DNA of 59,823 nt, taken from NCBI RefSeq assembly GCF_000177675.1, contig NZ_ADGX01000049.1, positions 1 through 59,823 on the forward strand. Reading direction: 5' to 3'. Position 1 is the first letter of the stretch. Each line of letters begins with the position of its first letter. Below, piece by piece: positions 40,209-59,184 of this stretch. The notes beneath the pieces were generated by a model. That model was given only the letters and a program-made list of their open reading frames with translations, did no database searches and had not been told where the DNA came from. The position numbers and the translations under genes are program-made. This DNA comes from Parafrankia sp. EUN1f. GTDB lineage: Bacteria > Actinomycetota > Actinomycetes > Frankiales > Frankiaceae.

Positions 40209-40283
40209 TCAGCTCGGCCCGACGACAGCCGGCGGCGTTCCTGAGCCCATCACAGGGCCGTGAGCATCGAGATCCAAGTTCGG

Positions 40284-41372
40284 TAAAGGCTGCACGGTCC
40301 TGGCGCTGATTCCCCAGGCGGTCCGTACGCGGGTCATGTAGGCGTCGGCGGTGACCTCCATCCTGTAGGTCGCGAACACCGGGTTGAACACTCCCGCGCA
40401 CGTCAGGATCGCCGTGTCCGCTGCGATAATGATCACCAGTCCGGTGAGGCCGTGGGGAGCGAGCGGGTACAGCAGCAGCCAGGGAGCGCGCGCCGCGCCG
40501 GCGACGAGCAGCACACGCCGCTGCCCGTACCTGCGGGCCAGAACCGGCGCGAGCCGGGACCCGGCGATCCCACCGAGACACGGCACGCCCAGGGACAGCC
40601 CGTAGGCGAACACGGACAGCCGGAGATCATCGAGGATGAGGACCGCGAGCAACGGAATGGTCATGACCACCGGGCCGCCGAACAGCATCGCGTTGAAGAA
40701 CAGCGGCCGCAACCCGGGGTGAGCGAGGATGTAGCGCCATCCGGGTCGGATACCGGAGTCGGCGGAGCGCTCGGGCGGTGGTGGTTCGCTCGCCCGGAGC
40801 CGCCGCACGCCAAGAGCGGAACCGAGGTAGGAGACGGCGTCGAGAGCCATCGTCGCGGTGGCCCCGAGACCTCCGATCAGCAGCCCTCCCACCGGCGGAC
40901 CAGCCATATTGGAGATCCAGTCGGTGGTCTCGAACCAGCTGTTCGTCGCCAGGCGACCTGCCGGATCCGTCATCGCTTTCAGATGCGCTCCGCTGGCGGC
41001 GGCGAAGGCGATCGACGCCGTGGTGGAGATGGCCCCGACCGCGACCAGCTGCGGGTAGGTCAGGAGATCCAGCGCGGCAGCGGCGGGCACGCTCGCGAGC
41101 GCGGCGAACCGCACCAGATCGGCCGCGATCATGACAGGGCGTTTGCGTCGGTGCTCGATACCGGCGCCCAACGGCAGCAGAACCGCCGCGGCGGCCAGCC
41201 CGGCCAGGCCGGACAGCAACGACACCTCGAACGCGGAGGCGTACAGAACGAGAACGGCGACGATCGGCAGCGCCCCGGACCCGACCCCACTGCCCGCCGC
41301 GCTTACGGCGTACGCGAGGAGCAGATTGCGGCGATCTTGATCCCGCACCCGGCGCACGCTACCACCCGCCAT
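40284..41372 (-). pseudogene. MFS transporter, N-terminal ~363 residues
   Basis: The start at ATG 41372 is followed by about eleven hydrophobic segments (LLLAYAVSAAGSGVGSGALPIVAVLVL onward) with the cytoplasmic loop GIEHRRKRPVM between helices 2 and 3, as in MFS drug-efflux-type permeases. The protein is normal to ARTVQP near 40284, then continues as unrelated hydrophilic residues to a stop at 40209. The natural end appears at 34623-34860. The gene was therefore probably split by the recombinase element. If expressed it would lack its last helix or helices. It is divergent from the exonuclease gene. Confidence 0.65.
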
Positions 41373-41536
41373 TTTCACGTCCGCCTGAAACCGCTGCGCG
41401 GTCAGGCTGGGACGCGGCCCGCACACAGGCCGACCGACCCGGTACGCTATGCCACTACGTGTGGCGCTGCGTACTACCGGTCACGGGACTTCCGGCCCAC
41501 CACGGTCGCTGACGCATTTCTGAAAGCGGTGTGGTG

Positions 41537-42451: not shown

Positions 42452-43286
42452 ACCCGACGCCAGACCGGCACCGGCCAGCCGGCGGGGTCCTTGCCCTTCC
42501 CAACGTCGACGTTCCGCCGCGACGAACGGGCGGCCGGGTCTGACGGGGTCCTGTTCGGCGTGCATGTGCGGCGCCCTCGGTCTCGTCTTTCGGCCTGGTG
42601 AGCGCGGGGACCTGAAACCGTACTGACCAGTCACAGCCGCAGCCACGGCACCGAGCGGCCCGATACCCCTTCAGGAGGCTGGCGGGCCAGCCGAACGAAT
42701 CGACATGATCGCGCCGAAGAGATGTACTCCGACATCGCTGTCTGCGCAGGTCAGACGCATCTCGAGGGCCGAAGAGAAGCTTCGTGGTGGCGGGAATGAC
42801 TTGCCCCCGGGCTCCGACCATCGTGGTGTCGTGCCATACACGACGGGTCATGTCACCCGAGGGAAACGAGATGATCATGCTCTTGCGTCAGTCAACCTGG
42901 CCTGCATGCAAGCGTCTCGCCGCCCCAAAGCGGTGCTGGAGAACACGGCGTTCGCCGGTAGCTGGCCCTCGCCGACCGGGGGAAGCCGCGCCAGGTCGAC
43001 GAGGCCGGAACCGGGGTCGAGCACATCACCCATACCTACAAACCCGGCACGGCCGTGACCACCAGACGGAAGGCCGACCAGATCCTCCGGCGCGGCCGAA
43101 GCCGGCCGCGCCTTCCCGAAGCGGTGCCTCTTCCCGATCGAACCATTCGCGAGCATCGGCGTATGGAAAGGCTGGCGCTGGACAGAGGCACAAGTCGCAT
43201 GATTCTCGCTCGGCCGTACTCGATATTGCCACCGAAACATCGTCGGACCATTCCCACCACCTAACTACTCGCCGCTTCCCTACTCT
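42452..43286. other. Stretch without a supported gene before the lanthipeptide cluster
   Basis: About 830 bp. A plus-strand frame near 43000 reads GVEHITHTYKPGTAVTTRRK and ADQILRRGR, possibly a remnant of a mobile-element protein, but no family could be named and no start fits. I see nothing else. Confidence 0.4.
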
Positions 43287-43304
43287 AGGTCGGAGGAGCG
43301 ACCT
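43287..43304. promoter_or_regulatory. Inverted repeat in the promoter of the lanthipeptide cluster
   Basis: AGGTCG and CGACCT separated by GAGGAG, just after TACTCT, a possible -10 box, and 37 bp before the methyltransferase ATG. It could be the operator of a cluster regulator; support is positional only. Confidence 0.3.
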
Positions 43305-43340
43305 GGGCTGCCATTTCCCGTCTCATTAAGGTGTCGAAAA

Positions 43341-44567
43341 ATGACTTCAGTCCGAGATTCAAGCGCCACCGACAGTGCGGCCACGTTGCGGGCCGCGATG
43401 GTGGACCAGCTTCGCGCGACGGGAGACGCCATCAAGACCGGGGAGGTGGCTGCGGCGGTCGGCAGGGTGCCCCGGCACCTTTTCGCACCCGACGAACCGC
43501 TGGAGGCGGTCTACGCAGCGAACAAAGCACTTGTGATCAAACGTGACGGGAACGGCGCGGCACTCAGCTCGCTTTCCGCCGCTCACATTCAAGCGGTCAT
43601 GTTGGAGCAGGCCGAGCTCGAACCGGGAATGCGTGTCCTGGAGATTGGCTCGGGCGGCTACAACGCCGCCCTCATCCAGGAGCTGGTCGGCGGCGGAGGC
43701 TCGGTGACGTCCGTCGACATCGACCAGGAGATCGTGAGCCGGGCCCGTGCCTGTCTGGACGCGGCCGGCTATCACGGCGTCGAGGTCGTCGCGGCCGACG
43801 CCGAGGCCGGCGTACCCGAAAAAGCACCCTACGACCGGATCATCGTGACCGTCGGCGCCTGGGACATCCCGCCAGCGTGGCGCGATCAGCTTGCGGGTGG
43901 CGGCAGGATCGTCGTGCCGCTCCGGCTGCGGGGGCTGACCCGGTCGATCGCGTTCGACCGGGTCGATGAGGACGACGAGGCTGGTCTGGTCAGCCGCAGC
44001 TATCGCCTATGCGGATTCGTCCCGATGCAGGGTGTCGGGACGTTTCACGAAAGACTCGTCCGTATTGCCGACGAGGTCACGCTTCGGGTTGACGACCCGT
44101 CCCAGGAGTTCGATGTCGAGGGGCTGCGCGACGCGCTGCACACGCCGAGGCTGGAACGCTGGTCCGGAGCGGCCTTCGATCTTCCTGACGAGCTGGAACT
44201 TTTCCTCGTCACGAATTTTCCTCAGGTCGCGCAACTATATGTGGACGAGACACAGGTCAAGAACGGCGGTTTCGCGCCCTCAGCCGCCAGAGGTGTGCCC
44301 ACGCTGGTCAGCGGTGGCAGTTTCGCCTACCGCACCAAGCGCCCGAACGAGAAGACCGGCGGGTTCGAGAGCGGCGTCGTCGCGCACGGTCCCGACGCTG
44401 ATCGCGTCGCCGAGCAATACGTGGAACTGCTCCGCCGGTGGGCCAGCGATCACCGCCGTTCCGGTGCCGCCCGAATCCAGTACGTCCCGAAGGCCGCGGG
44501 GACGCCGGCGCCGTCCGTGGGGCTGGTGCCGAAACGGCATGGCGCTGTCGTCGTCCGCTGGCCCTGA
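43341..44567 (+). CDS. FxLD-system methyltransferase (PIMT-like), copy 1
   Basis: A 408-residue protein. The N-terminal half is a protein-isoaspartate-methyltransferase-like domain: VPRHLFAP (43-50), then a SAAHIQAVMLEQ helix and MRVLEIGSGGYNAALI (97-112) as the SAM site, followed by SVDIDQE; the C-terminal ~200 residues are specific to the FxLD system (TIGR04364-like). Related enzymes in other lanthipeptide clusters (OlvSA and similar) methylate a core Asp, which cyclises to succinimide and ends as isoAsp. The Asp pair in the core of the peptide encoded 71 bp downstream would be a possible site. It is the first gene of the operon. Confidence 0.85.
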   Translation: MTSVRDSSATDSAATLRAAMVDQLRATGDAIKTGEVAAAVGRVPRHLFAPDEPLEAVYAANKALVIKRDGNGAALSSLSAAHIQAVMLEQAELEPGMRVLEIGSGGYNAALIQELVGGGGSVTSVDIDQEIVSRARACLDAAGYHGVEVVAADAEAGVPEKAPYDRIIVTVGAWDIPPAWRDQLAGGGRIVVPLRLRGLTRSIAFDRVDEDDEAGLVSRSYRLCGFVPMQGVGTFHERLVRIADEVTLRVDDPSQEFDVEGLRDALHTPRLERWSGAAFDLPDELELFLVTNFPQVAQLYVDETQVKNGGFAPSAARGVPTLVSGGSFAYRTKRPNEKTGGFESGVVAHGPDADRVAEQYVELLRRWASDHRRSGAARIQYVPKAAGTPAPSVGLVPKRHGAVVVRWP

Positions 44568-44638
44568 GTTTCCGCGCTCCCGAACGGATGTCCGGGCGCC
44601 GGAATCGCACCACCACCATCACAACCCAGGAGGTCTTC

Positions 44639-44833
44639 ATGTCCATCCAGCTCGATGACCCGGTGTTGGCCGTGCCCCCGCAGGCGGGGCGGGACCAGGA
44701 GGAGGACTTCACCACATGGGACCTGGACGTCTCGATCGTCGAGTCCGGACCGGCCGCTGACCGGCTCATCCGGATGACCGACGACGGCTGCGGCACGACG
44801 TGCGAGACGGCCTGCTCGACCACCTGCCCGTAA
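44639..44833 (+). CDS. lanA: FxLD-family lanthipeptide precursor
   Basis: A 64-residue peptide. The leader carries an acidic patch and the recognition box WDLDVSIVESG (27-37), where the usual Phe of the F-x-L-D box is Trp; a Phe occurs three residues earlier (F24). The core (about 47-64) reads TDDGCGTTCETACSTTCP, with Cys at 51, 55, 59 and 63, exactly every fourth residue, and seven Ser/Thr for dehydration. CCAGGAGG lies just upstream of the ATG. It sits between the methyltransferase and LanB and is followed by a strong hairpin. The leader cleavage site is not evident and no protease gene is adjacent. Confidence 0.85.
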   Translation: MSIQLDDPVLAVPPQAGRDQEEDFTTWDLDVSIVESGPAADRLIRMTDDGCGTTCETACSTTCP

Positions 44834-44857
44834 CCAGCGCCCCGACGACCTGAGAAC

Positions 44858-44900
44858 GCGGCGTCCGTCCGGCCGGCCTCGGCGGCCGGACGGACGCCGC
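44858..44900 (+). terminator. 18-bp perfect hairpin between precursor and lanB
   Basis: Arms GCGGCGTCCGTCCGGCCG (44858-44875) and its exact complement (44883-44900) enclose a 7-nt loop. There is no T-run. Its position 24 bp after the precursor stop and 18 bp before the LanB GTG suggests partial termination or mRNA stabilisation that would give more precursor than enzyme, as known for other lantibiotic operons. Confidence 0.65.
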
Positions 44901-44918
44901 CCGACTGCGGAGTGGCCG

Positions 44919-47900
44919 GTGTATCAGCATCTCGACACCGTGGTGGTGCGTGCCGCGGTGAACCCACCTGCGGACGCGGTGGACGAGCAATGGCCCGACC
45001 TGGTCGGACCGGCGGCCACGCCAGAGTCCTGGCGCCTCTGGTTACGGGAGGTGATGCAGAATTGCGCCTTCGAGATGGCGCTGGAGCAGGCCAGCCCTGT
45101 GCTCGCTCGCCGCGTTCAGGAGATCCGCAACGGACGCCAGATACCCGAGGCCGGGGTGCGGCGGGCAGTGCTGTCGGTGATGCGCTACCGGCTTCGTGCG
45201 TCGGGGCGGGCGACGCCGTTCGGCCTGTTCGCGGGGGTCGCGCCGGCGCGCGTCGCTGACCACGCCTCGGTGCGCGCCGGCGCGGCGCACCGTGCCGTCG
45301 CGCGGGTCGAGGCTGGCTGGCTCTGCGCGGTGGTCAACCGGCTGGAAGCCGATCCGGCCGTCCGGGCGCGGCTGGATGTGGTGGCGAACAACCTCGTGTT
45401 CGAGCGTGACGGCCATCTGGTGCTGGAGCACTGTGCCGGAGGAGGCACCGACGGTGCTCCGACGCGCGTACAGGTACGCGCGAACGCACCTGTACGCGCC
45501 GCGATGGGCATCGGCCGCCGATCGGTGCGGCTCTCCGACCTCGCGGCCGGACTCGCGTCCGAGTTCGCCCCGGTTCCGACCGACGTCGTCGACAAGCTTC
45601 TGGCCGATCTGGTGGCGCAGCGGTTCCTGATCACGAACCTGCGGCCTCCGATGACGGCGACCGGCCCTCTCCGTCATGTCGTGGGTGTACTCCAGGCAAC
45701 CTTGGACGGCGGGCCGGTCACCGCCGAGACGGCCTGGGTCGCCGAACGCCTGAACGGGATCGTCGATGGGCTGCGCAGTCATGACAGCGCGCCGAGCTGG
45801 GCCGCCGCGCGCAGCCGCCGCGAACGCCTCGGCGTGGACATGGCTGAGGTCCACCCTTCGGCGGAGCCGGCGCTCCGGGTTGATCTGCGGATGGACTGGT
45901 CTCTGGCTGTGCCCCGCTCGGTCGCGGCCGAGGCCGCGGCGGCGGCAGGTGTGCTGGTGCGCCTGGCGCGGCGCTCGACGCTCAGCTCCGGCTGGGACGT
46001 CTGGCATGGCCGGTTCCTCGAACGGTATGGGCCGTGCGCTCTGGTTCCCGTTCTCGACGCGGTTGACCCTGAGATCGGACTGGGCTATCCCGCCGGCTAT
46101 GCCGGAAGCCCCGCATCACCCGAGGGCGTGACGTTCACCGATCGGGACGCGAAGCTGTTGGCGTTGGCGCAGAACGCCGCGCTGCGCCGCGAACGGGAGA
46201 TCCTCCTCGACGACAGGATGGTCAGCGACCTTACGGTCATCGACAAGGACGACCGCGTTCAGCCCACCACGGAACTCACCGTACGCGTCCACGCCGCGAG
46301 CACCCGCTCGCTCGACGAGGGCGCGTTCACGCTCGCGGTCGTCGGGGTGTCGCGCAGAGCCGGCACCACGACCGGACGATTCCTGGACCTCTTCGACGCT
46401 CAGGACGGTGCGCGGATGTCCGCGCTGTACGCGGGTCTTCCCACCGCGAGCCGCGACGCGCTGAGCGTGCAGATCTCCGCGCCCGCTCGCTATACGAACA
46501 CCGACACGGTAGGACGCTCCCCCCAGGTCATGGCGCACCGGCTCTCCCTCGGCGAGTACGACGACAGCGAGGGCGGGGGCTCGCTGTCGCTGGACGACAT
46601 CGTGGTGACGGCCGATGTGCACCGGATCTATCTGCTCTCGCTCTCCCGCCGCCAGCTGGTGGAACCGGTGGCGCTCAACGCGGTGGAGCCGGTGCGACGC
46701 GCGCATCCGCTGGCGCGTTTCCTCACCGAGGCGCCAGGCGCGCTGAGCGTTCCCTGCGCCCCTTTCGACTGGGGGGCCGCGGCCCGGCTGCCGTTCCTGC
46801 CGGCGCTGCGGCATGGACGAACAGTCCTCTCGCCGGCGCGCTGGCTGCTGGGGGCCGAGGACCTGCCCGGCTCCGCAGCCGGCTGGACGGAGTGGGACCG
46901 TGCCCTGGCCAGCTGGCGGGAGCAGGTCAACCTCCCGTCAGCGGTCTACCTCGGCGACGGTGACCAGCGCATCGGACTGGACCTGTCCGAGCCGGCCCAC
47001 CGGGCACTGCTGCGCTCCCACCTCGACCGCTCCGGCACCGCTCTGCTGCGCGCCGCCCCCGACGCCGACGCGGCCGGCTGGGTCGACGGGCATGCCCACG
47101 AGATCGTCGTCCCCCTGGCAGCCGCCACCGCGCAGGCGGCGACACCGCGCTGGGTAAGCCAGGCGCAGGCCGTCGGCCGCGATCACGGGCATCTTCCGGG
47201 CTGCGACGCACGGTTCTCGGTCAAGCTCTACGCCGGCCTCGGTGTCCAGGACGCCATCCTCACCCACCATCTGCCGCACCTCGTCGACGAGCTGAACGGG
47301 CAGGCCACGGGCGAGGCGCGGTGGTGGTTCCTGCGCTACCACGACCCCGACGACCATCTGCGCCTGCGGCGCACGGTCACCACCGACGGTGTGGGGCCGG
47401 CCGCTGACCGGATCGGTGCCTGGACCCGGCGGCTCCGCCGCGCCGGCCTGATCTCCCGCGCGCAGTGGGACACCTACTTCCCCGAGACCTCACGCTTCGG
47501 AGGCACCGCCGCGATGGACACCGCGGAGGCGTACTTCGCCGCTGACTCAGTGGCAGCCCTCGCCCAGCTCGCCGCCTCCCGGGAGAAGTACGGACCCGAC
47601 CGTCGCGCGTTGACCGCCGCCAGCATGCTCGCCATCGTGACCGGCCTGATCGGCGACACCGTCGAGGCGACACGCTGGCTCATCAGCCACACCCGAACGG
47701 AGCCGTCCGCCCCGGCCCGCGCGCTGTACCAGCAGACCATCGCCCTGGCGAACCCGGCCGACCCACGCGCCCTGGCCGCACAGCCCGGAGGCGAAGACGT
47801 CCTCTCCTGCTGGACTCACCGGCGCGAGGCACTCGCCGCCTACCGACACGTCCTCCAGGAGACCCGCGCAGAGTCCCCCACCACCCTGCTGCCTGATCTT

Positions 47901-48017
47901 CTGCATCTCCACCACGTCCGTATGGCCGGAGTCAGCCTGCCCGGTGAGCGCGCCTGCCTGCACCTGGCTCGCGCCGCCGCGCTGAGCTGGACCGCGCGCA
48001 CGAGGAACCCATCATGA
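44919..48017 (+). CDS. lanB: Lantibiotic dehydratase LanB, full length
   Basis: A 1032-residue class I dehydratase, which glutamylates Ser/Thr from glutamyl-tRNA and eliminates glutamate to give Dha/Dhb. The N-terminal glutamylation domain has the family hallmark MRYRLRASGRATPFGLFAGV (88-106), and LDDIVVTADVHRIYLLS further on. The C-terminal ~250 residues are the elimination (SpaB_C) domain: SVKLYAGLGVQDAIL, then WWFLRYHDPDDHLRLR and FGGTAAMDTAEAYFAAD. GTG 44919 with GGAG upstream is the only start that keeps the N-terminus. The stop overlaps the LanC start (ATGA). Confidence 0.9.
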   Translation: MYQHLDTVVVRAAVNPPADAVDEQWPDLVGPAATPESWRLWLREVMQNCAFEMALEQASPVLARRVQEIRNGRQIPEAGVRRAVLSVMRYRLRASGRATPFGLFAGVAPARVADHASVRAGAAHRAVARVEAGWLCAVVNRLEADPAVRARLDVVANNLVFERDGHLVLEHCAGGGTDGAPTRVQVRANAPVRAAMGIGRRSVRLSDLAAGLASEFAPVPTDVVDKLLADLVAQRFLITNLRPPMTATGPLRHVVGVLQATLDGGPVTAETAWVAERLNGIVDGLRSHDSAPSWAAARSRRERLGVDMAEVHPSAEPALRVDLRMDWSLAVPRSVAAEAAAAAGVLVRLARRSTLSSGWDVWHGRFLERYGPCALVPVLDAVDPEIGLGYPAGYAGSPASPEGVTFTDRDAKLLALAQNAALRREREILLDDRMVSDLTVIDKDDRVQPTTELTVRVHAASTRSLDEGAFTLAVVGVSRRAGTTTGRFLDLFDAQDGARMSALYAGLPTASRDALSVQISAPARYTNTDTVGRSPQVMAHRLSLGEYDDSEGGGSLSLDDIVVTADVHRIYLLSLSRRQLVEPVALNAVEPVRRAHPLARFLTEAPGALSVPCAPFDWGAAARLPFLPALRHGRTVLSPARWLLGAEDLPGSAAGWTEWDRALASWREQVNLPSAVYLGDGDQRIGLDLSEPAHRALLRSHLDRSGTALLRAAPDADAAGWVDGHAHEIVVPLAAATAQAATPRWVSQAQAVGRDHGHLPGCDARFSVKLYAGLGVQDAILTHHLPHLVDELNGQATGEARWWFLRYHDPDDHLRLRRTVTTDGVGPAADRIGAWTRRLRRAGLISRAQWDTYFPETSRFGGTAAMDTAEAYFAADSVAALAQLAASREKYGPDRRALTAASMLAIVTGLIGDTVEATRWLISHTRTEPSAPARALYQQTIALANPADPRALAAQPGGEDVLSCWTHRREALAAYRHVLQETRAESPTTLLPDLLHLHHVRMAGVSLPGERACLHLARAAALSWTARTRNPS

Positions 48018-49252
48018 CCAGTTCCGATCCGGGCGCGCTCGCCGCCGCGGACGCCGTCGCCGAAGCCCTGGCCGACCCGAACACCGCCTGGGCCGCCCAG
48101 CGACCAGCCGGGGGAAGGGCGTGGCCGCAGTCGCTCGCCGGCGGCGCGGCGGGCGTCGCCCTGCTCCACATCGAACGTGCCCACTCCGGGCACGGCGACT
48201 GGGGCACCGCGCACGCCTGGCTGTCCGCCGCCGCGTCCGACGACCTGACCGCGGCGGCCAACGCGGGCCTGTACCTGGGCGCTCCGGCCCTGGCCTTCAC
48301 CCTGCACACCGCAGCCGGACCATCACGCCGGTATAACCGTGCTCTCGGCAGCCTGGATCAGGCCGTCGTCGCCATGACCCGCACCCGACTTGCCGCGGCC
48401 CACCTACGTATCGAGCAGAGTCGGCGGCCCGCGATGAAGGAGTTCGACCTGATCCGGGGCCTGTCCGGACTCGGCGTCTACCACCTGCGCCGCCACCCCG
48501 ATCACCCGATCGCCGGCGAGCTGCTGTCGTACCTGGTCAGGCTGACCGAACCACTGGCCGTCCGAGACGACCTCCCACCCTGGTGGACGGACTCGGCACC
48601 CAACGGCGAACCCAGCCCCGAGCTCCCCCAGGGACACGGCAACGTCGGCCTCGCGCACGGCATCGGCGCCGTTCTCGCCCTGCTCTCCCTGGCCCGCCTG
48701 CGCGGCCTGCCCATCCCTGGCGCCGACGAAGCTATCGCACGGATCTGCACCTGGACCGACCGCTGGCGCCAGCACGGCGACGCCGGCCCCTGGTGGCCCG
48801 GATTCATCACCCACCGCCAGGTCCGCGAGGGCCAGGTCGCGGCGACCCTGCGGCCCCGCCCCTCCTGGTGTTACGGCGTCAGCGGCACCGCCCGCGCCCA
48901 GCAGCTCGCCGGCATGGCCCTCGGAGACACCGCACGCCAGCACGCCGCCGAGAACGCGCTACTCGCGGCACTGCGGGATCAGGCGCAACTCGACCAGCTC
49001 ACCGAGATCGGCCTGTGTCACGGCACCGCCGGGCTGCTCCAGTCCGCCTGGCGCATGGCGGCCGACTCTCACAACCCCCAGATCGCCGCGGAACTCCCCG
49101 GCCTGTCAGCCAGGCTGATCGCACAGATGGACAGAACCGTGCTCGACCCCGAGCTTCTCGACGGTGCCGCCGGCGCCGCCCTCGCCCTGCACACCGCCGG
49201 CACCGGCGCCGCCCCGGCGTCGGGCTGGGACGCCTTCCTCCTGCTGGCCTGA
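48014..49252 (+). CDS. lanC: Lanthionine synthetase C-like cyclase
   Basis: A 412-residue LanC-fold (alpha/alpha toroid) protein that joins Cys thiols to Dha/Dhb. The zinc ligands are visible: Cys in RPSWCYGVSGTAR (about 287) and Cys-His in IGLCHGTAGLL (about 335). GHGNVGLAHGIGAVLALL supplies the conserved active-site His region, and LDGAAGAALAL closes the fold. Start overlaps the LanB stop. The first ~130 residues are less conserved than in NisC. Ring formation with the four regularly spaced Cys of the precursor is expected. Confidence 0.87.
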   Translation: MTSSDPGALAAADAVAEALADPNTAWAAQRPAGGRAWPQSLAGGAAGVALLHIERAHSGHGDWGTAHAWLSAAASDDLTAAANAGLYLGAPALAFTLHTAAGPSRRYNRALGSLDQAVVAMTRTRLAAAHLRIEQSRRPAMKEFDLIRGLSGLGVYHLRRHPDHPIAGELLSYLVRLTEPLAVRDDLPPWWTDSAPNGEPSPELPQGHGNVGLAHGIGAVLALLSLARLRGLPIPGADEAIARICTWTDRWRQHGDAGPWWPGFITHRQVREGQVAATLRPRPSWCYGVSGTARAQQLAGMALGDTARQHAAENALLAALRDQAQLDQLTEIGLCHGTAGLLQSAWRMAADSHNPQIAAELPGLSARLIAQMDRTVLDPELLDGAAGAALALHTAGTGAAPASGWDAFLLLA

Positions 49253-49264
49253 TCAGGAGCCGAC

Positions 49265-50110
49265 ATGAACACCCTCACCTGGCACCAGGTCAACGTCGCC
49301 TTCCCCAACTGGGTGAGCGCCGAGGCCACCGCCGTGGACCACCTCACCCCTCTGCTGGATAGCGCCGAGACCGACGGGCTCATCACCTCCTGGTTCTTGG
49401 TGCGAAAGGCGCCCTGCTGGCGCATCCGCTACCTGCCCCGCGAGACGACAGGAGAGGCCGAGGCGTACATCCACACCCGTCTCGCCGGCCTCCAGGAGAC
49501 ACGCCTCATCCAGGACACCACGTTCACCCTCTACGAACCAGAAAGCCATGCCTTCGGCGGCGCCGAAGGCATGGACACCGCCCACCGGCTCTTCCACCTC
49601 GACAGCCGACACCTGCTCACCTACCTGAACGACACCAGCCACAACCCGGCCGACCGGCGCCGCCGTGAACTGTCGGTCCTGCTGTGCTCGCACCTGCTAC
49701 ACGCCGCCGGACTCGACTGGTACGAGGAAGGCGACGTATGGGCGAGAGTCGCCGATCACCGGCAACCACCCGAGCGCATCCCCGACGACGGGCTCCGCAC
49801 CCTGCACGACGGCCTGCGACGCCTGATGAGCATCGATAACCGCCTTCTGCCCACGGATGCCCTGCCGCCGGCCTTCACCGCCTGGACCAGCGCCTTCGCC
49901 GCCGCCGGCACCGAACTGGCCATCCTGGCCACCGACGGCCGGCTACACCGCGGCCTGCGCGCCGTCCTCGCCCACCACGTCATCTTCGCCTGGAACCGGC
50001 ACGGTCTTCCCCACACAGCGCAGGCTGTCCTCGCGCACGCCGCCAAGACCGTGGTGTTCGGGCATAAGCCCACCGCCGATCACCAGCCGCACGAACGGGA
50101 ACCGACATGA
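49265..50110 (+). CDS. Thiopeptide-type bacteriocin biosynthesis protein (stand-alone SpaB_C)
   Basis: A 281-residue protein with the family opening WHQVNVAFPNW, then LITSWFLVRKAPCWRIRYLP, GGAEGMDTAHRLFHLDSRHLL and a helical end. This is the separate glutamate-elimination/SpaB_C type domain (TIGR03891-like) seen in thiopeptide and FxLD clusters. The full-length LanB next door already has such a domain, so the cluster carries two. CAGGAG lies just upstream of the ATG. Its stop overlaps the next start. Confidence 0.82.
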   Translation: MNTLTWHQVNVAFPNWVSAEATAVDHLTPLLDSAETDGLITSWFLVRKAPCWRIRYLPRETTGEAEAYIHTRLAGLQETRLIQDTTFTLYEPESHAFGGAEGMDTAHRLFHLDSRHLLTYLNDTSHNPADRRRRELSVLLCSHLLHAAGLDWYEEGDVWARVADHRQPPERIPDDGLRTLHDGLRRLMSIDNRLLPTDALPPAFTAWTSAFAAAGTELAILATDGRLHRGLRAVLAHHVIFAWNRHGLPHTAQAVLAHAAKTVVFGHKPTADHQPHEREPT

Positions 50111-51258
50111 CGAAGGTCGGAACAGACCCGACCGACGAGAATCTGCGTGCCTGGTTCCCGCTGGTCCAACGCCCCCGCCCACCCGGCCTCCCCCTCGAAG
50201 ACCGAGTCAGACACCTACAAGACCTGGCCGCACGAACAGCGAACGGCATCCCACTCGTCCGAGCCGCCGAAGTCTGCAACAAGGCGGCACTGATCGCGTC
50301 CGACTGCGGACAACCAGACCTCGCCCAGGACCTGTGCTGGCGACAGCACACGCTGTTCGACCAGGCACGGCCACTGCCCGCCTCGGCTGCCGAACTCGCC
50401 CTCCAACCGGTGCTCAACCTGCCGCGCCAACAGATACGCGACGGTGACGGCAACCGCGCCTACGCGATCCTTCAGACCCTGTACGAAGCCGCCCTCACGC
50501 AGACCAGCGCACTGATCGACGGACGGTCTGTCAGTCTCCACAACGTCACCTGCGCCCCCGATGACCATCGGACCATGCGCACCCTGACCTGGACGGCGCT
50601 CCTGGCGGACGGAGTCCGGGCACTGGCACGGGCCGGGCGCTGGCACGAAGCCGCCGAACGAGCAGCCGCCCACCGCGGAGTCGGCCGCCGGCTGCTCGAC
50701 GGCCGACAGGCGACCGTCCTGGCACTCGCCCAGGCCGGGCACACCGAGCAGGCCGCAGAGCTGGTCGACCAGAGCACCACCCCCGAGCCCTGGGAACAGG
50801 CGGTCCAAACGATCCTGCGGGTGTACTGCCTGCGACAGGCCGGCGCCGACACCGGCCCTCAGATCGCCCCGCTCGTCACCACCGCGCTCATCCTGATGCG
50901 ACAACCCGACCCGTCCACCAGGGTCTTCCGCGCCCGAGCAGGCATGATCACGCTCAACCTCGCCGACGGCCACGACCATCCGCGCATCGACTCACTACGG
51001 CAGGCCCTGATCGCAGGCGCGTTCGATGACGCATACACGGCCCGCGACACGCTCGCGCACCGCCTCCGGGAGTCGATGACCACGGCGCAGCGACATGCCC
51101 TGACCGACGTCATCTATGCCGCTGGCCTCGATGCCGGTGGCCTCCCCGAAGCGTTGTATGGAGACCTGATGGACACGGTGAACTCCGCCGAAGATCAGCT
51201 ACGCGGGCATCTGATCCACCACACCAGACGGTGCGAGTGCACAACAACGACAAGCTGA
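50107..51258 (+). CDS. Uncharacterised helical-repeat protein of the FxLD operon
   Basis: A 383-residue protein of mostly alpha-helical, TPR-like sequence (AILQTLYEAALTQ, ALARAGRWHEAAERAAAHR, VLALAQAGHTEQAAELVDQ). No catalytic motif or membrane segment is visible. It is coupled by ATGA to the SpaB_C gene and is the last gene of the operon, so a scaffold or regulatory partner role is likely but unproven. It ends with RRCECTTTTS, an unusual Cys/Thr-rich tail. Confidence 0.65.
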   Translation: MTKVGTDPTDENLRAWFPLVQRPRPPGLPLEDRVRHLQDLAARTANGIPLVRAAEVCNKAALIASDCGQPDLAQDLCWRQHTLFDQARPLPASAAELALQPVLNLPRQQIRDGDGNRAYAILQTLYEAALTQTSALIDGRSVSLHNVTCAPDDHRTMRTLTWTALLADGVRALARAGRWHEAAERAAAHRGVGRRLLDGRQATVLALAQAGHTEQAAELVDQSTTPEPWEQAVQTILRVYCLRQAGADTGPQIAPLVTTALILMRQPDPSTRVFRARAGMITLNLADGHDHPRIDSLRQALIAGAFDDAYTARDTLAHRLRESMTTAQRHALTDVIYAAGLDAGGLPEALYGDLMDTVNSAEDQLRGHLIHHTRRCECTTTTS

Positions 51259-51327
51259 ACAACGGGTCGACGGAGGGACGGCACCATCTCCTACCACTCG
51301 GTCCGTGACAGAAGGACTACCCTGAGA

Positions 51328-53088
51328 ATGGTTCCAGTCAGGAACCACCGGCAGCTCGGCCAGCTGGTTTCGGAGGGGATCGAGCGCGTCGTGACGGCCA
51401 AGCCAAGTCAGCGGGTGGAGCAGGACGAGCTGCGGGCACGGATGCGCGCGGTCGGCATGTCCCACGACGAGATCGCGATCGAGTTCGCCCGTCGCTACCA
51501 CTACCGTCCCCGCGCCGCCCATCGCCATGCCCGCGGCTGGACTCAGACGCAGGCCGCGAACCACATCAACGCCCGCGCCGCCCGCGCCGGTCTCGACCCG
51601 GACGGCGCTGCCCCCATGACCGGCCCGAAGCTGTCGGAACTGGAGAACTGGCCGCTGCCGAGCAACCGTCGCCGACCCACCCCCCAGCTCCTCGCTCTGC
51701 TCGCCGAGGTCTACGGCACGAGCATCCACAGTTTGATCGACCTCGACGACCGCGAGCATTTCGGCCCCGCCGACCTGCTCCTCATCGACAAGACGTCGAA
51801 AACCGCCCAGCCTCAGCCGGTAGAACTGCCGGGACAGACGAGGCGCCAGAGCGACAGAACCGATGCCGGCGCCATGGCGGAGCCCACCGCCGTCCTGGGA
51901 ACTCGATCGCTGGTGGAACTGGGCACGAGTCCCGTCGGCCGCCTTTCCGAGGAAACGACAGGTCCCATGACGTGGGAAATGGCACCGACGACAGAGGCGG
52001 TGGATAAGATCGTCAGGGATGATCTCTCCCTTGATCGCCGCGAGGCGGCTCGCGCGATGGCAGACGTGATCGTCGGCGCTGCTCTTCTCGAAGGGGCGGA
52101 GCGCTGGCTGAACACCATCGAGCCGCCCGCCGGGCAGCGTCGCACCGCGGGCGTCGGCGATGAGGAGATCGAGCAGATTGAGCAGGCCGCGCGGACCTTC
52201 CGGGCCTGGGACAACCAGTTCGGCGGTGGCCTTCGGCGGAAGGCGGTCGTGGGTCAGCTCGCTGAGATCGCGGATGAGCTTCGCGACTTCTCGCATCCAC
52301 AGGATCTGACCCGGCGGCTGCACGGTGTGATGGCCGATCTTGCTGGTACCGCCGCGACGATGTCCTGGGACTCGGGTCAGGGAGGGGTCGCGCAGCGCTA
52401 CTATCTGCTCGCTCTTCGATCGGCCAAGGCGGCTGACGATCCCGTGTTCTGCGCGAACATCCTCGCTGGCATGGCGCGGCAGCAGTTCTATCTCGGCCGG
52501 ACGACCGAAGGACTTGAGCTCGTCCGGCTCGCGCAGGACGTCGCCGGCGTTCGGGCGACCCCGGCGGTGCGTGCGATGCTGTTCACGCGCGAGGCATGGG
52601 CCTACGCCCAGCAAGGTCGGCTCTCCGCCTTCCGACGTGCGACAGGCCGGGCGCAGGACGCCTTCCGGGACGTCGACCCGGCCGTTGAACCGTACTGGAT
52701 CTCCTACTTCGATCAGGCGGAACTGGCCGGCGTCACCGGAGGTCGTCTTCTCGACATCGCGCACCAGGCGCCCGAGTATGCCGACGAGGCAGCCACCTGG
52801 TTGAGCCAGGCCGTCCGGGCTCGGGGCGTCGGCAGCGTCCGTAGCACCGCTCTTGATCAGCTCGGGCACGCCGAGATCAGACTGGTACAGGGCGAATTCG
52901 ACGAGGCAGCACGGCTGGGCCACGCCGCCGTGACAACGGTCGAGCAGACCCGGTCCAGCCGCGTCCGGGTCAAACTAGGCCAGTTCTATCGGCATGCCGA
53001 GACCAGAACATCCGCCCGCCCCATCGCCGAGCTGTGCGGGAGGATCAAACCCATGCTTCGCGCCGAAGACACGGCGGCCCGGATATGA
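51328..53088 (+). CDS. XRE-type regulator with TPR-like C-terminal region
   Basis: A 586-residue protein. Residues about 30-140 form a helix-turn-helix region (DELRARMRAVGMSHDEIAIEFARRY, GWTQTQAANHIN, GPKLSELENWP, LLALLAEVYGTSIHSLIDLD). After a linker (150-230) come long helical repeats to the end. Such HTH-TPR proteins are common in actinobacteria beside peptide natural-product genes and may sense a peptide. It starts 69 bp after the helical-repeat gene and may share its transcript. The stop overlaps the following ATG, pairing it with the SLOG-like protein. Confidence 0.78.
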   Translation: MVPVRNHRQLGQLVSEGIERVVTAKPSQRVEQDELRARMRAVGMSHDEIAIEFARRYHYRPRAAHRHARGWTQTQAANHINARAARAGLDPDGAAPMTGPKLSELENWPLPSNRRRPTPQLLALLAEVYGTSIHSLIDLDDREHFGPADLLLIDKTSKTAQPQPVELPGQTRRQSDRTDAGAMAEPTAVLGTRSLVELGTSPVGRLSEETTGPMTWEMAPTTEAVDKIVRDDLSLDRREAARAMADVIVGAALLEGAERWLNTIEPPAGQRRTAGVGDEEIEQIEQAARTFRAWDNQFGGGLRRKAVVGQLAEIADELRDFSHPQDLTRRLHGVMADLAGTAATMSWDSGQGGVAQRYYLLALRSAKAADDPVFCANILAGMARQQFYLGRTTEGLELVRLAQDVAGVRATPAVRAMLFTREAWAYAQQGRLSAFRRATGRAQDAFRDVDPAVEPYWISYFDQAELAGVTGGRLLDIAHQAPEYADEAATWLSQAVRARGVGSVRSTALDQLGHAEIRLVQGEFDEAARLGHAAVTTVEQTRSSRVRVKLGQFYRHAETRTSARPIAELCGRIKPMLRAEDTAARI

Positions 53089-55269: not shown

Positions 55270-55359
55270 ATGATCTCCACTTCTCTGTGCCCGCTAGCTG
55301 CGGATACCGCGACCGAACGCGGCGGGGATGATGGCCGCTCCCCGGCGGTGGCGTCGTGA
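55270..55359 (+). CDS. 29-residue peptide coupled to the second FxLD methyltransferase
   Basis: A strong GAGGAGG site lies 8 bp before ATG 55270. The peptide reads MISTSLCPLAADTATERGG then DDGRSPAVAS, with one Cys, five Ser/Thr in the first half and an Asp pair. Its stop overlaps the methyltransferase start (TGATG at 55357-55361). It could be a leader peptide controlling translation of the methyltransferase, a very small or degenerate RiPP precursor, or the end of a decayed gene. It lacks an F-x-L-D box. Confidence 0.5.
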   Translation: MISTSLCPLAADTATERGGDDGRSPAVAS

Positions 55360-56558
55360 TGCTGCCCATCGCGGACGCCTCGCCCGTGCAGCTGCGGAAC
55401 GCGATGGTCGAGCGGATCCTGGCCGCCGGACCGGTGCCCATGGCCGTGGAGGCCGCGTTGCGTACCGTTCCGCGGGAGCTGTTCCTTCCGAACCTGCCGC
55501 CCGAGGTGGCGTACCAGGACCGGACCGTCGTCCTCAAACGCGACGTCTACGGGAACCCTGTGGGCTCGGTGTCCCAGCCCTCGGTGATTGCGGCGATGCT
55601 GGAAGCGTTGCGGGTCGAACCCGGCCAGCGGATTCTCGAGCTGGGATCCGGGGGCTACGGCGCCGCGTTGTTGGCGAGGCTGGCCGGCCGGACAGGTTCG
55701 GTGGTGAGCCTCGATCTCGATGAGGCCGTGGTTCACCGGACCCACGAATGCCTGCGTGTGGCCGGCTACACCGGGATCACGGCTCTGGTCGGCGATGGGC
55801 GTTTCGGGTTCGGGCTCCGCGCCCCCTACGACCGGATCATCGTCACGTGCGACACGCCGGACGTGCCGCAGGACTGGTTCGACCAGCTTGTCGAGGGCGG
55901 CAGGATCATCATCCCGCTGCACCTCCGCGGTCTCACCCGCACCGTCGCGTTCACCAAGGTCGGCGGGATCCTGACCTCGGATGCGATCCGCCCGTTCGCG
56001 TTCGGACCGATGCAGGGTTTCGGGGTCCCCCGCCGGACCACCGTGACCCTGGCAGGCGGGGCACGGCTCAACGTCGGCCCCGACCAGGACGTCGACATCG
56101 ACGCCCTGGTCGCCGCCCTCGCCGAGCCACGTCACACGGTGGGAACCGGTGTCATCCTCACCCCCGACGACACCCTGCTGCTGAGCCTGGAGCTGTGGCT
56201 GGCGACAGCCCAACAGACCTTGGGCCGGTTCCACCCCGACACCCGCACCGATCAGCAAGGCCCGATCGCCTCTGCCGTCCCGCCTGGTGTGCCAGCGACC
56301 TGGACCGACGACACGATCGCCTACCTCGCCCTCGGACAGACCACCGGTACGGGCCTGGAACTCGGTGTGATCGCCTACGGGCCACACCGGGTCCGGCTCG
56401 GAGACCAGCTCGCTCACGACGTCCGTGCCTGGAACACCGAGCACCGCGGGCAGCTCCCCACGATCCACGTCTACCCCCGCGGCATCGTCGAGAAGTCCCC
56501 ACCACCCGGCCGGCTTTTCAATCTGCCGTCCGCGCAGGTCCTGATCAGCTGGGGCTGA
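55359..56558 (+). CDS. FxLD-system methyltransferase (PIMT-like), copy 2
   Basis: A 399-residue protein, homologous to the methyltransferase at 43341: VPRELFLPNLPPEVAYQD, SQPSVIAAMLEALRVEPGQRILELGSGGYGAALL (SAM loop), then a YDRIIVTCDTPDVPQDW block and GGRIIIPLHLRGLTRTVAF, followed by the FxLD-specific C-terminal region (AIRPFAFGPMQGFG). The ATG at 55359 overlaps the preceding stop; a GTG one codon earlier is possible. No LanB, LanC or recognisable precursor is beside it, so it may serve the cluster 4 kb upstream or a lost one. Confidence 0.83.
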   Translation: MLPIADASPVQLRNAMVERILAAGPVPMAVEAALRTVPRELFLPNLPPEVAYQDRTVVLKRDVYGNPVGSVSQPSVIAAMLEALRVEPGQRILELGSGGYGAALLARLAGRTGSVVSLDLDEAVVHRTHECLRVAGYTGITALVGDGRFGFGLRAPYDRIIVTCDTPDVPQDWFDQLVEGGRIIIPLHLRGLTRTVAFTKVGGILTSDAIRPFAFGPMQGFGVPRRTTVTLAGGARLNVGPDQDVDIDALVAALAEPRHTVGTGVILTPDDTLLLSLELWLATAQQTLGRFHPDTRTDQQGPIASAVPPGVPATWTDDTIAYLALGQTTGTGLELGVIAYGPHRVRLGDQLAHDVRAWNTEHRGQLPTIHVYPRGIVEKSPPPGRLFNLPSAQVLISWG

Positions 56559-56561
56559 ACC

Positions 56562-57449
56562 GTGGCTTCCTCCCGTCCCTCCTCCAAATCCGTGCGGAGC
56601 GGCCGGCCCACCGGCCGCTCCACCACCGGATCCGCCGAGGCGGATCTTCTGATCGTGCACCGTCACCAAGAGCATCTCGAGGGCCGGCGCCGGCTGTCAC
56701 CCGCCGAGACCACGGTCCTCACCGGGGCACGGGTCCGTCCCGGGCAGGACCTGGTCGACCTCAGCCAGGCATCGACCCTGACCCCTGCCGCGCTCTGGGC
56801 CGTCGTCCCCGGCGGCAGCGTCACCACCCTCGCCCCGACCACCGTCGCGCTGCAGCGGATCCGGCCGACCCCGGAGAACGGCCACACCTGGGGATCGGTC
56901 TGGGACTTACTCGAACACCCCGTACCCCTGCCAGACGCCAGTGTCGACGCGGTCATCGGCCGCAGTGTCCTCGGCCCACTCCGCCACCCCCGCCGGATGC
57001 TGACCGACATCGCCCGCGTCCTCAAACCCGCAGGACGGCTATCGCTGTGCGAACCCCTGCTCGGGCAGAGCAAACCTGTCAGCCTCGACGGACTCAGCGC
57101 TCACGAGATCGCCCAGGCCGAACGAGTCCTCGCCGGCGTCCGTCCCGCCGCGCATCTGTTCACCGCGGCGCACGCCGTCGGCAACGCCCGCCTCGCCGGC
57201 CTCCTCCCGGTCTCACACACCGAGGAGACGGTCACCGCCCCCATCATCGGAGTCGCCGCCGCCGACGCCGCCCTACGCGCCGTAGGCCCGGCGGGAGAGT
57301 CCGCCTACCAGGCGATCAGCCGCGTCCTCGGCGCGGCCGTCGCCCGCAAGTACGCCGAAGCATGGCGCTCGACCGCCCGCCGACGCCCCCTCCTCCTGGA
57401 AACACCCATCGCCTACCTCACCATGATCAAACCAGACACCACCCAATGA
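56562..57449 (+). CDS. Methyltransferase-like protein with degenerate SAM site
   Basis: A 295-residue protein. LPDASVDAVIGRSVLGPLRH, then RRMLTDIARVLKPAGRLSLCEPL is the second half of a class I (Methyltransf_11) fold. The first SAM motif, normally a DLGCGTG-type loop, here reads QDLVDLSQASTLTPAALWAV, without the glycines, so SAM binding is doubtful. GTG 56562 lies 3 bp after the stop of methyltransferase copy 2, so the two are cotranscribed. It may be a structural partner of that enzyme or a pseudoenzyme. Confidence 0.7.
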   Translation: MASSRPSSKSVRSGRPTGRSTTGSAEADLLIVHRHQEHLEGRRRLSPAETTVLTGARVRPGQDLVDLSQASTLTPAALWAVVPGGSVTTLAPTTVALQRIRPTPENGHTWGSVWDLLEHPVPLPDASVDAVIGRSVLGPLRHPRRMLTDIARVLKPAGRLSLCEPLLGQSKPVSLDGLSAHEIAQAERVLAGVRPAAHLFTAAHAVGNARLAGLLPVSHTEETVTAPIIGVAAADAALRAVGPAGESAYQAISRVLGAAVARKYAEAWRSTARRRPLLLETPIAYLTMIKPDTTQ

Positions 57450-58578: not shown

Positions 58579-58640
58579 CAGTTAAATCCGCCGTCTTTCT
58601 CACAGCAGGAATGCTCATCTTGTCCTTGCCGTGCGCAGCT

Positions 58641-59184
58641 GAGGCGCCCGCGCACGCGGGGGTCTTCCCTGCGCGATGCCCTGCGCCCCGGCCGCCGACC
58701 GGTCGTCCCCGCGCACGCGGGGGTCTTCCCAGGATCGCCCTGTACGAGCTGCGCCCGCACGAGTCGTCCCCGCGCACGCGGGGGTCTTCCCCAGTCGTGC
58801 GGGTCCGCGCACGCGGGGGTCTTCCCGCGACGCAGCCGCGCCGGAACGTGACCGGTGGGTCGTCCCCGCGCACGCGGGGGTCTTCCCCAGTTGAGGATCT
58901 CCACACCCTTGTTCTTGATGTCGTCCCCGCGCACGCGGGGGTCTTCCGTCAGTGAGGTCGGGAAGGTTGCCGACCGGGTGGTCGTCCCCGCGCACGCGGG
59001 GGTCTTCCCGACGCCCCCGGCGTCCCCGGCGTCCCCGCAACCCTCGTCTCGTCGTCCCCGCGCACGCGGGGGTCTTCCTGTGGAGGATGACATGCCGAGC
59101 CCACTGCAGTGGTCGTCCCCGCGCACGCGGGGGTCTTCCGTACACCACCTGCCGAGCATCAGGCGCGACCGCGTCGTCCCCGCG
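58641..59184. CRISPR. Type I-E-like CRISPR array cut by an IS21 element
   Basis: The 28-bp repeat begins GTCGTCCCCGCG and ends GGGGGTCTTCC, with a CCCCGCG/CGCGGGG stem, as in actinobacterial I-E arrays. Repeats start at 58641 (first six bases diverged), 58702, 58763, 58805 (only its last 21 bases), 58859, 58920, 58981, 59051, 59112 and 59173 (first 12 bases only). Spacers are 33 nt, except 14 nt at 58791-58804 (26-nt deletion of spacer plus repeat start) and 42 nt at 59009-59050 (9-bp tandem duplication CCGGCGTCC). The last repeat is broken at 59184/59185 by an IS21 end. No cas gene is in the window. Orientation is plus by repeat sequence, but the degenerate repeat at the left would suggest the leader lies on the right; unresolved. 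Confidence 0.92.

Follow-up and report, generated by a model that had tools for sequence, protein, structure and literature searches.

Which peptide do six adjacent genes of Parafrankia sp. EUN1f, a Frankia-group actinomycete, encode, and how closely does it follow the class I lanthipeptides already characterised? The genes occupy positions 43341-51258 of a contig stretch of 59,823 nucleotides, referred to here as the window. All six lie on the plus strand with tight junctions and open reading frames, and the positions and strands given for them in a preliminary description, which had proposed an FxLD-type class I operon of six same-direction genes, were all borne out (Table 1). The family matches of the methyltransferase, the precursor, LanB, LanC and the stand-alone SpaB_C protein are much stronger than random similarity would give. 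The cluster is very probably of the coi type of class I lanthipeptide ('lanthimiditide'). Gene identity, retention of the catalytic residues, conservation of the gene order and the core pattern are shown here, and the chemistry would follow that of characterised relatives.

Table 1. Features of the lanthipeptide locus and its neighbourhood.
Feature	Position	Strand	Properties
MFS-family transporter gene	40209-41426	opposite	Pfam
LanSA, PIMT-type Asp O-methyltransferase with extra C-terminal domain	43341..44567	+	408 aa; TIGR04364, PF01135
LanA, 64-aa FxLD precursor	44639..44833	+	TIGR04363; leader motif WDLD; core ...TDDGCGTTCETACSTTCP
G+C-rich hairpin, 43 bases, LanA-LanB gap	44858..44900	+	stem about 18 bp
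LanB, full-length tRNA-dependent dehydratase with own elimination domain	44919..48017	+	1032 aa, GTG start; PF04738 and PF14028
LanC cyclase	48014..49252	+	PF05147, E 1.2e-33
Stand-alone glutamyl lyase, predicted syn-eliminating (CoiSA(ED)/SptBb-like)	49265..50110	+	PF14028, E 6e-28
CoiH-like TPR-fold helical protein	50107..51258	+	TPR matches; AlphaFold pLDDT 92.7
NsdA-family HTH + TPR regulator gene	51328..53088	+	NF053720, 263.8 bits, cut-off 75

The preliminary description had named other FxLD clusters as a comparison; among these the gene order recurs across genera and the core pattern is kept. With LanSA written as PIMT, the stand-alone glutamyl lyase as GL and the helical protein as HEL, the order PIMT-LanA-LanB-LanC-GL-HEL is present at 28 of the 115 compared loci, spanning Streptomyces, Actinomadura, Nonomuraea, Micromonospora and Amycolatopsis, among others. 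Thirteen further loci have the coi-like order LanA-LanB-LanC-GL-PIMT-HEL, and where GL and PIMT are neighbours in that order they form a single open frame (17 of 19 tested loci).

Modification enzymes and the core peptide

The precursor LanA, whose start is preceded by AGGAGG, matches the model TIGR04363 'FxLD family lanthipeptide' with 57.8 bits (cut-off 30). It contains the Cys residues at 51, 55, 59 and 63 and the Asp pair described before, the latter at 48 and 49, and the TDDGC stretch at residues 47-51 fits the published TxDGC motif. In a hand-chosen set of 40 precursors, 37 from PIMT-first loci and three from loci in which a PIMT was not detected, T47, D49, C51, C55, S/T57, A58 and C59 are invariant (40/40), and position 54 is Thr in 39 and Ser in one. 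A structure search found no solved structure resembling the precursor.

LanB matches PF04738 with an E-value of 1.2e-210 and has residues identical to NisB R83, R87, T89, R784, R786, E823 and R826 at the aligned positions. Its gene overlaps that of LanC by 4 bases, and the WCYG and CHG motifs of LanC (C286, C335, H336) align with the matching NisC motifs. We take these to be the catalytic and zinc-ligand residues of the two enzymes, and the conserved residues whose loss had been named as an argument against the operon are thus retained on alignment to NisB and NisC. The locus is assigned to class I, with a LanB predicted to comprise glutamylation and elimination domains and a LanC predicted to hold the zinc ligands. 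LanB, presumably bound at the WDLD leader motif, would glutamylate Thr and Ser residues of the core using Glu-tRNA and would eliminate most of them to (Z)-Dhb or Dha.

The stand-alone SpaB_C protein scores 216.6 bits against TIGR03891 (cut-off 48.45). Its K48, R53 and R55 have the same spacing as K46, R51 and R53 of CoiSA(ED), and K48, which is Lys in all 12 aligned stand-alone proteins, aligns with Tyr807 of LanB; this Lys versus Tyr difference between syn-lyases and LanB has been pointed out before (PMC9011353). A stand-alone syn-lyase beside a full LanB is likewise a published variant (PMC9486935). Judged by these residues, syn-glutamyl lyase is the most likely identity of the protein, which would convert one glutamylated Thr near the C-terminus into (E)-Dhb by syn elimination. 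In the olv/coi work, a second lyase leads to an unusual methyllanthionine (PMC9486935, PMC13001092).

LanSA matches TIGR04364 'methyltransferase, FxLD system' with 543.7 bits (cut-off 320) and PF01135 with an E-value of 1.6e-40, and its SAM motif EIGSGG is at residue 101; NCBI names the genes of such methyltransferases fxlM. An Asp had been proposed as the likely target of this PIMT homologue, and the present analysis upholds that proposal. LanSA would methylate Asp49 within the first ring, and the ester would pass to a succinimide that opens mostly to isoAsp. By analogy, isoAsp is the expected end product, in preference to a stable methyl ester, the other alternative named before.

The Thr and Cys residues of the core correspond to T43/C47/T50/C51/C55/T57 of CoiA1 at +4, mapped by the residue numbers printed in PMC9486935. 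In CoiA1 a single small ring comes first; behind it two rings overlap, and one of these is closed between Cys51 and the downstream Thr57 (PMC9486935). Since C-x3-C spacing is compatible with this arrangement, it does not imply small regular rings, and the regular small rings predicted in the preliminary description are unlikely. On the model of CoiA1, LanC would close Thr47-Cys51 first and then the overlapping rings Thr54-Cys59 and Cys55-Thr61/62.

Whereas CoiA1 has three rings, the window core has a fourth Cys, Cys63. A fourth ring, Thr57-Cys63, is probably formed, as predicted from co-conservation: among precursors with the fourth Cys, S/T57 is present in 44 of 45 and Ser or Thr directly precedes that Cys in 44 of 45, compared with S/T57 in 7 of 11 precursors that lack it (Fisher p 0.004 on hand-chosen rows, uncorrected for relatedness). 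In one precursor, L073, the fourth Cys occurs without S/T57. The comparison comprises 57 typed precursors, from which L072a was dropped as it has no anchor. Copies that are almost identical were left out, as were the majority of precursors lacking C-x3-C-x3-C (such as L043, L044, L053, L056, L062, L074, L075, L078, L079, L124, L125, L128, the L138 type and L147), several of which would fall on the three-Cys side. Of the 24 precursors whose Cys residues are spaced 4-4-3, 23 have Ser directly ahead of the final Cys and one has Thr; a Thr-specific syn-lyase can therefore not share one target across all members. The fourth-Cys subgroup would represent a structural variant outside both characterised products, OlvA and CoiA1.

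The helical protein, the lanA-lanB hairpin and the flanking genes

The last gene of the set overlaps the lyase gene by 4 bases and encodes a helical protein whose family set has 42 members with a mean column identity of 50%. Among its Frankiaceae matches, 28 of 30 have an FxLD methyltransferase match within 10 kb, and at loci with the GL-PIMT order, as well as in two plasmid records, it follows the GL-PIMT fusion. The predicted model is a TPR fold tied to FxLD loci; by gene position the protein is a putative counterpart of CoiH. Sequence search for solved relatives returned one match (E 1.2), taken as chance, Foldseek gave nothing convincing (best E 9.9e-4, 9mg8, TM 0.12), and a single-sequence scan of genome contigs confirmed no relatives. 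Superposition on RRNPP peptide receptors by VIA-align gave Z 13.3 against NprR (5dbk; 270 aligned, rmsd 7.5) and Z 12.3 against Rap (4gyo; 249 aligned, rmsd 6.9), values that unrelated TPR proteins also reach, for instance Scc4 with Z 13.7. A possible role of the TPR protein is that of an accessory factor or receptor that binds either the peptide or one of the modification enzymes.

The gap between lanA and lanB contains a G+C-rich hairpin absent from the preliminary description, with a folding energy of z -3.51 against dinucleotide shuffles. Gaps of this kind fold better than shuffles (z below -2) at 32 of 40 loci; the gap of L085 is no better than shuffles (z +0.4) and that of L097 only weakly better. 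Stems of at least 10 bp are found in all 40 gaps, yet 307 of 880 dinucleotide shuffles have one too, so the claim is based on energies and not on stem length alone. The hairpin is probably a read-through attenuator, which would pass only part of the transcripts on to lanB and leave LanA in excess over the enzymes.

Two flanking genes were also absent from the preliminary description. One encodes the MFS-family transporter; the other, on the same strand and 69 bases 3' of the helical-protein gene, encodes the NsdA-family regulator. Ten of 150 listed NsdA-family members have an FxLD methyltransferase match within 10 kb, where 1.07 are expected, and the family is about tenfold enriched near these loci; the gene is possibly a local regulator. 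Kinship between its TPR part and the helical protein was considered and rejected (hhalign probability 0.2, no profile similarity).

The earlier observation that no ABC transporter or leader protease lies nearby agrees with Pfam, which detects neither an ABC transporter nor a peptidase family in ten neighbour genes (34.9-57.4 kb). No exporter or protease was conserved in the ORFs flanking 32 loci that have the PIMT-first layout or a variant of it. The ORFs, called by a simple GC3 heuristic, were 83 of 84 on the upstream side and 82 of 86 on the downstream side, the five excluded running off an end of their own stretch. The families seen include ABC_tran (3), MFS_1 (1) and amino acid permease (3); these results cover the 25 most frequent families out of 60 and of 68, so that single proteases could be hidden. 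Among 117 loci, the neighbours in the window almost never recur as linked genes: the MFS, exonuclease, two recombinase, 187-aa, 267-aa, second SAM methyltransferase and 184-aa genes are each found at 0 to 3 loci, and the ORF of the kinase region recurs at five. Leader removal and export, if any, would depend on enzymes coded elsewhere.

Alternative readings and relation to known systems

The first 230 residues of LanSA resemble housekeeping PIMTs, as would befit a protein-repair enzyme unrelated to the lanthipeptide; but LanSA has an extra C-terminal domain, its match covers all 394 positions of the FxLD equivalog model, and in the usual layouts its gene stands next to that of LanA or follows GL; OlvSA, of the same type, is active only on the cyclised peptide (PMC13001092), which leaves that reading extremely improbable. 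A pamtide or imiditide, in which the PIMT is the sole modifying enzyme, was ruled out by the presence of LanB and LanC, and the LanSA sequence has no WxxxGxP motif. It is very improbable that the SpaB_C protein acts as a [4+2] pyridine synthase of the thiopeptide kind or as some other novel tailoring enzyme, giving a product that is not plainly of the coi type. Its best-fitting NCBIfam model is named 'thiopeptide-type bacteriocin biosynthesis protein' and Walker et al. left the possibility open (PMC7268733); against this, the syn-lyase Lys and both Arg residues at CoiSA(ED) spacing led us to reject a thiopeptide identity, the CoiSA domain has been demonstrated to eliminate glutamate (PMC9486935), and further thiopeptide enzymes were not found among the scanned neighbours.

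That the cluster has decayed or fallen silent and yields no product, which we regard as highly improbable, would fit the missing exporter and protease, the lack of any reported native product of this type as of 2022 (PMC9486935) and the absence of LanB from 10 of the 40 Frankiaceae stretches taken. However, every frame is open, the aligned catalytic residues are kept and the layout is maintained across genera; a copy from a different genus shares 91% DNA identity across roughly 9 kb, the proteins being 98% identical for LanA and 85-91% for the remaining five.

The coi-type assignment places the cluster beside that of Streptomyces coelicolor A3(2) (CoiA1/B/C/SA/H; PMC9486935, PMC9011353), which also has no protease gene. 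In coi the lyase is fused to the methyltransferase (CoiSA), whereas in the window the two are separate genes and the methyltransferase comes first. The olv cluster of Streptomyces olivaceus NRRL B-3009 (OlvA/B/C/SA; Acedo 2019, as described in PMC13001092, PMC9486935 and PMC7268733) shares LanB, LanC and LanSA, the last turning an Asp in the MeLan ring into isoAsp, but has neither second lyase nor CoiH, and OlvA has an additional N-terminal Lan ring. Families I 1 to I 4 of Walker et al. 2020 (PMC7268733) resemble the present system in their actinobacterial precursors, conserved Asp and PF01135 methyltransferase, and according to PMC13001092, Frankia class I clusters with an adjacent O-methyltransferase, the same enzyme pair in the same bacterial group, were reported in 2010.

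The preliminary description understated what is known of the products: OlvA and CoiA1 have been reconstituted, with rings and stereochemistry established and isoAsp obtained in OlvA (PMC9486935, PMC13001092). That work describes rings made by LanB and LanC and conversion of Asp to isoAsp in the first ring, and already states that a protease gene is missing (PMC9486935, PMC13001092). The cluster type and its chemistry were thus known, and what is added here is the TPR-protein link, the lanA-lanB hairpin and the NsdA enrichment.

We consider it unlikely that the modified peptide has the TPR protein as its own receptor or escort, that neighbouring HTH-TPR regulators of the NsdA family sense this peptide too and that it serves as a signal acting at short range or within the cell; if true, this would account for the lack of an accompanying exporter or protease gene and of a known antibiotic product. 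The window cluster adds little chemistry, and its value is that of a pointer. The four largest families in the 2020 listing of class I lanthipeptides, every one actinobacterial, belong to clusters of this type (PMC7268733), and concrete handles on their function come from the conserved TPR protein, the enrichment of NsdA-type regulators and the hairpin between lanA and lanB.

Gene set and layouts of related loci

Reading of the window sequence from the source genome, a 9.35-Mb draft of the Frankia group in 396 contigs, confirmed the six genes of the preliminary description, together with their junctions and shared strand. Its assignment to the FxLD system also holds, as the methyltransferase and the precursor both score well over the cut-offs of curated models. 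The LanA leader has the motif WDLD; FxLD is the recognition motif of lanthipeptide leaders, with tolerance for variants such as LxLD according to the consulted part of a 2025 paper (PMC12710340). Alignment of LanC against NisC showed that the WCYG and CHG motifs are kept. In the alignment of LanB against NisB, residues R784, R786 and E823 are identical, as are R83, R87, T89 and R826, which we take to have functional roles, and NisB Asp121 is replaced by Glu131. Roles for R784, R786 and E823 are given in PMC9486935, which also presents a stand-alone syn-lyase next to a full LanB as a recognised variant. The stand-alone SpaB_C protein (GL) has Lys48 at the position of LanB Tyr807, in addition to Arg53 and Arg55; such a constellation of one lysine and two arginines has been tied to syn-elimination and D-allo-L-methyllanthionine in the sections consulted of PMC9011353 and PMC9486935.

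Among the 100 FxLD methyltransferase matches listed, those at E 1e-60 or better cover 28 of 35 Frankiaceae genomes. For locus comparison, 40 Frankiaceae stretches around mostly the strongest of these matches were combined with 80 named loci, the top-scoring among 548 located through a separate alignment with LanB, leaving 115 loci once five duplicates were dropped. Layouts were determined by tblastn with the window proteins, and the counts are not frequencies in nature, as loci were picked by similarity. The exact order PIMT-LanA-LanB-LanC-GL-HEL, with HEL the helical protein, recurs in 28 loci; the same order without HEL and the coi-like order LanA-LanB-LanC-GL-PIMT-HEL each occur in 13, and the olv-like LanB-LanC-PIMT in six. 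The rest comprise loci with LanB absent (10), LanB alone (5) and other variants (40). Absence of LanA from a layout is often a tblastn miss, and reading of open frames recovers FxLD precursors in many such loci. Of 19 loci tested, all but L060 and L077 have GL and PIMT in a single open frame (17 loci). Altogether, the cluster in the window is genuine and complete, and typical of its kind.

Several related loci depart from these layouts. The same genome has another class I cluster (G000:C209:4237-10279), with the layout PIMT-LanB-LanC-GL and no helical gene; its short precursor ends TDDECGSGDTNSDACSGGSGR, and its LanB matches are split over two reading frames. Locus L042 (G028:C1), which may be a relic, has LanA, PIMT and a partial helical gene adjacent to one another, with neither LanB nor LanC. 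Five Streptomyces loci (L090, L091, L094, L095 and L101) possess a full-length LanB of 51-52% identity, and tblastn found no LanC, LanSA or lyase match in these stretches. All five have a near-identical 50-residue peptide frame just upstream on the opposite strand, and a radical SAM gene (L091 and L095 tested) and a B12-type radical SAM gene (L091 tested) lie beside this LanB, suggesting a possible hybrid RiPP pathway.

Precursor core and predicted rings

The statement that such products are little characterised stands in part. The type itself is established, with PIMT homologues as the commonest auxiliary enzymes of class I clusters and TxDGC in most precursors of the PIMT-associated type, according to the consulted parts of PMC9486935, PMC9011353, PMC7268733, PMC10787088 and PMC13001092; according to PMC9486935, the native product of the olv/coi type was unreported in 2022 and a protease gene is absent. 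OlvSA requires its peptide to be cyclised first and yields isoAsp via a succinimide (PMC13001092).

We compared 40 precursors, 37 from PIMT-first loci and three (L092, L093 and L144) from loci in which no PIMT was seen. T47, D49, C51, C55, S/T57, A58 and C59 are invariant; position 54 has Thr in all but one precursor (39 of 40), the remaining one having Ser. The last cysteine follows C59 at +3 in 24 precursors, at +4 in 15, including the window LanA, and at +5 in one. Given these invariant positions and spacing counts, the four-residue spacing is, as read from the alignment, a family trait and not a quirk of the window peptide.

The regular small rings proposed earlier are unlikely, because the window core maps at +4 onto CoiA1, whose rings join Thr43, Thr50 and Thr57 with Cys47, Cys55 and Cys51 in three different stereochemistries (PMC9486935, in part). 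A fourth cysteine is present in 45 of 56 precursors; S/T57 occurs in 44 of these, and S/T directly before that cysteine likewise in 44. Of the 11 precursors lacking it, seven have S/T57. Since Thr precedes the last cysteine in all 15 precursors of spacing +4 while position 61 varies, Cys55 may pair with Thr62. Based on these patterns, four rings are predicted in the product, the fourth being Thr57-Cys63.

Helical protein and lanA-lanB hairpin

The window helical protein is CoiH-like; the one paper found on CoiH and lanthipeptides calls CoiH a protein of "unknown function". The window protein has no match in Pfam or NCBIfam. Across 42 aligned members, weak matches to TPR_4 (18) and TPR_7 (15) were found, with a best E of 3.2e-6. 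The AlphaFold2 model is confident and mostly helical (pLDDT 92.7, pTM 0.89), and VIA-align groups it with TPR superhelices, the top rows including NprR (Z 13.3) and Rap (Z ≤12.3); unrelated TPR proteins score equally, such as Scc4 (Z 13.7), and helical repeats can reach 13 through their common arrangement alone. The family is tied to the FxLD system, as 28 of 30 Frankiaceae matches, counting partial ones, are located no more than 10 kb from an FxLD methyltransferase match; the other two are on contigs without a listed one. The invariant polar residues N58, D66, N104, R107, R111, R200 and Q201 are candidate binding residues.

The hairpin between lanA and lanB was compared in 40 stretches, one from the window and 39 from other loci, some of which are close relatives. 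Folding gave z below -2 in 30 of 40 against mononucleotide shuffles and in 32 of 40 against dinucleotide shuffles, with L085 as an exception in the latter (z +0.4). A longest stem of at least 10 bp is present in all 40, yet also in 307 of 880 shuffles. Since the sequence 3' of the window hairpin has no T run, partial read-through would be its likely effect.

Features of the window around and within the cluster
Feature	Position (window)	Location	Details
Two tandem tyrosine recombinase genes	34959-38626	One side of cluster region	
Hairpin	44858-44900	Between lanA and lanB	Stem ~18 bp; z -3.5
NsdA-type HTH part	51328-51830		N-terminal
29-aa ORF	55270-55359	Overlaps start of second PIMT	
Second FxLD-type PIMT	55356-56558		354 bits, over TIGR04364 cut-off
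Second SAM methyltransferase gene	56562-57449	Behind second PIMT	
CRISPR-like array	58638-59152		Nine copies of ~28-base repeat
IS21-type IstB gene	59297-59758	Other side of cluster region	

Flanking genes and spread of the operon

The second PIMT lacks the WxxxGxP motif, and neither LanB nor LanC adjoins its surroundings (55270-57449). A PIMT matching it at 52-63% lies directly 5' of a PIMT-LanA-LanB-LanC-GL cluster in L049, L050 and L052. The repeats of the CRISPR-like array (GTCGTCCCCGCGCACGCGGGGGTCTTCC) are mostly 61 bases apart, with some units at other spacing.

An NsdA-family HTH-TPR gene starts 69 bases downstream of the cluster. Among the 150 Frankiaceae NsdA-family members listed (the family total is larger), ten, including the window gene, are no more than 10 kb away from any of 100 FxLD methyltransferase matches, where 1.07 would be expected; ten of the 100 matches score below the curated cut-off. 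This enrichment is only a lead, because the genomes are related and such regulators may favour biosynthetic loci generally. In the same genome, seven places match the window regulator protein and ten match the NsdA family. Of 117 loci, 14 (e.g. L045, L070 and L075) have a match to the N-terminal HTH part, at 49-85% identity. With an equal threshold, 11 of these 14 have no match to the C-terminal part, as though the two ends of the regulator had been shuffled.

Window 42675-51622, covering the whole operon, aligns at 91% DNA identity with L051 of another genus (G003:C1:2382000-2401900), and the rest of the window has no alignment to this 20-kb stretch at E 1e-10, the flanks being unrelated. This single block points to a probable recent exchange or transfer of the operon, with one boundary falling within the NsdA-type gene. 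Matches to the helical gene also occur on 11 plasmid records from Streptomyces and Embleya; two of these, annotated by NCBI, have the order precursor, LanB, LanC, fxlM and helical gene. Peptides of this kind are widespread.
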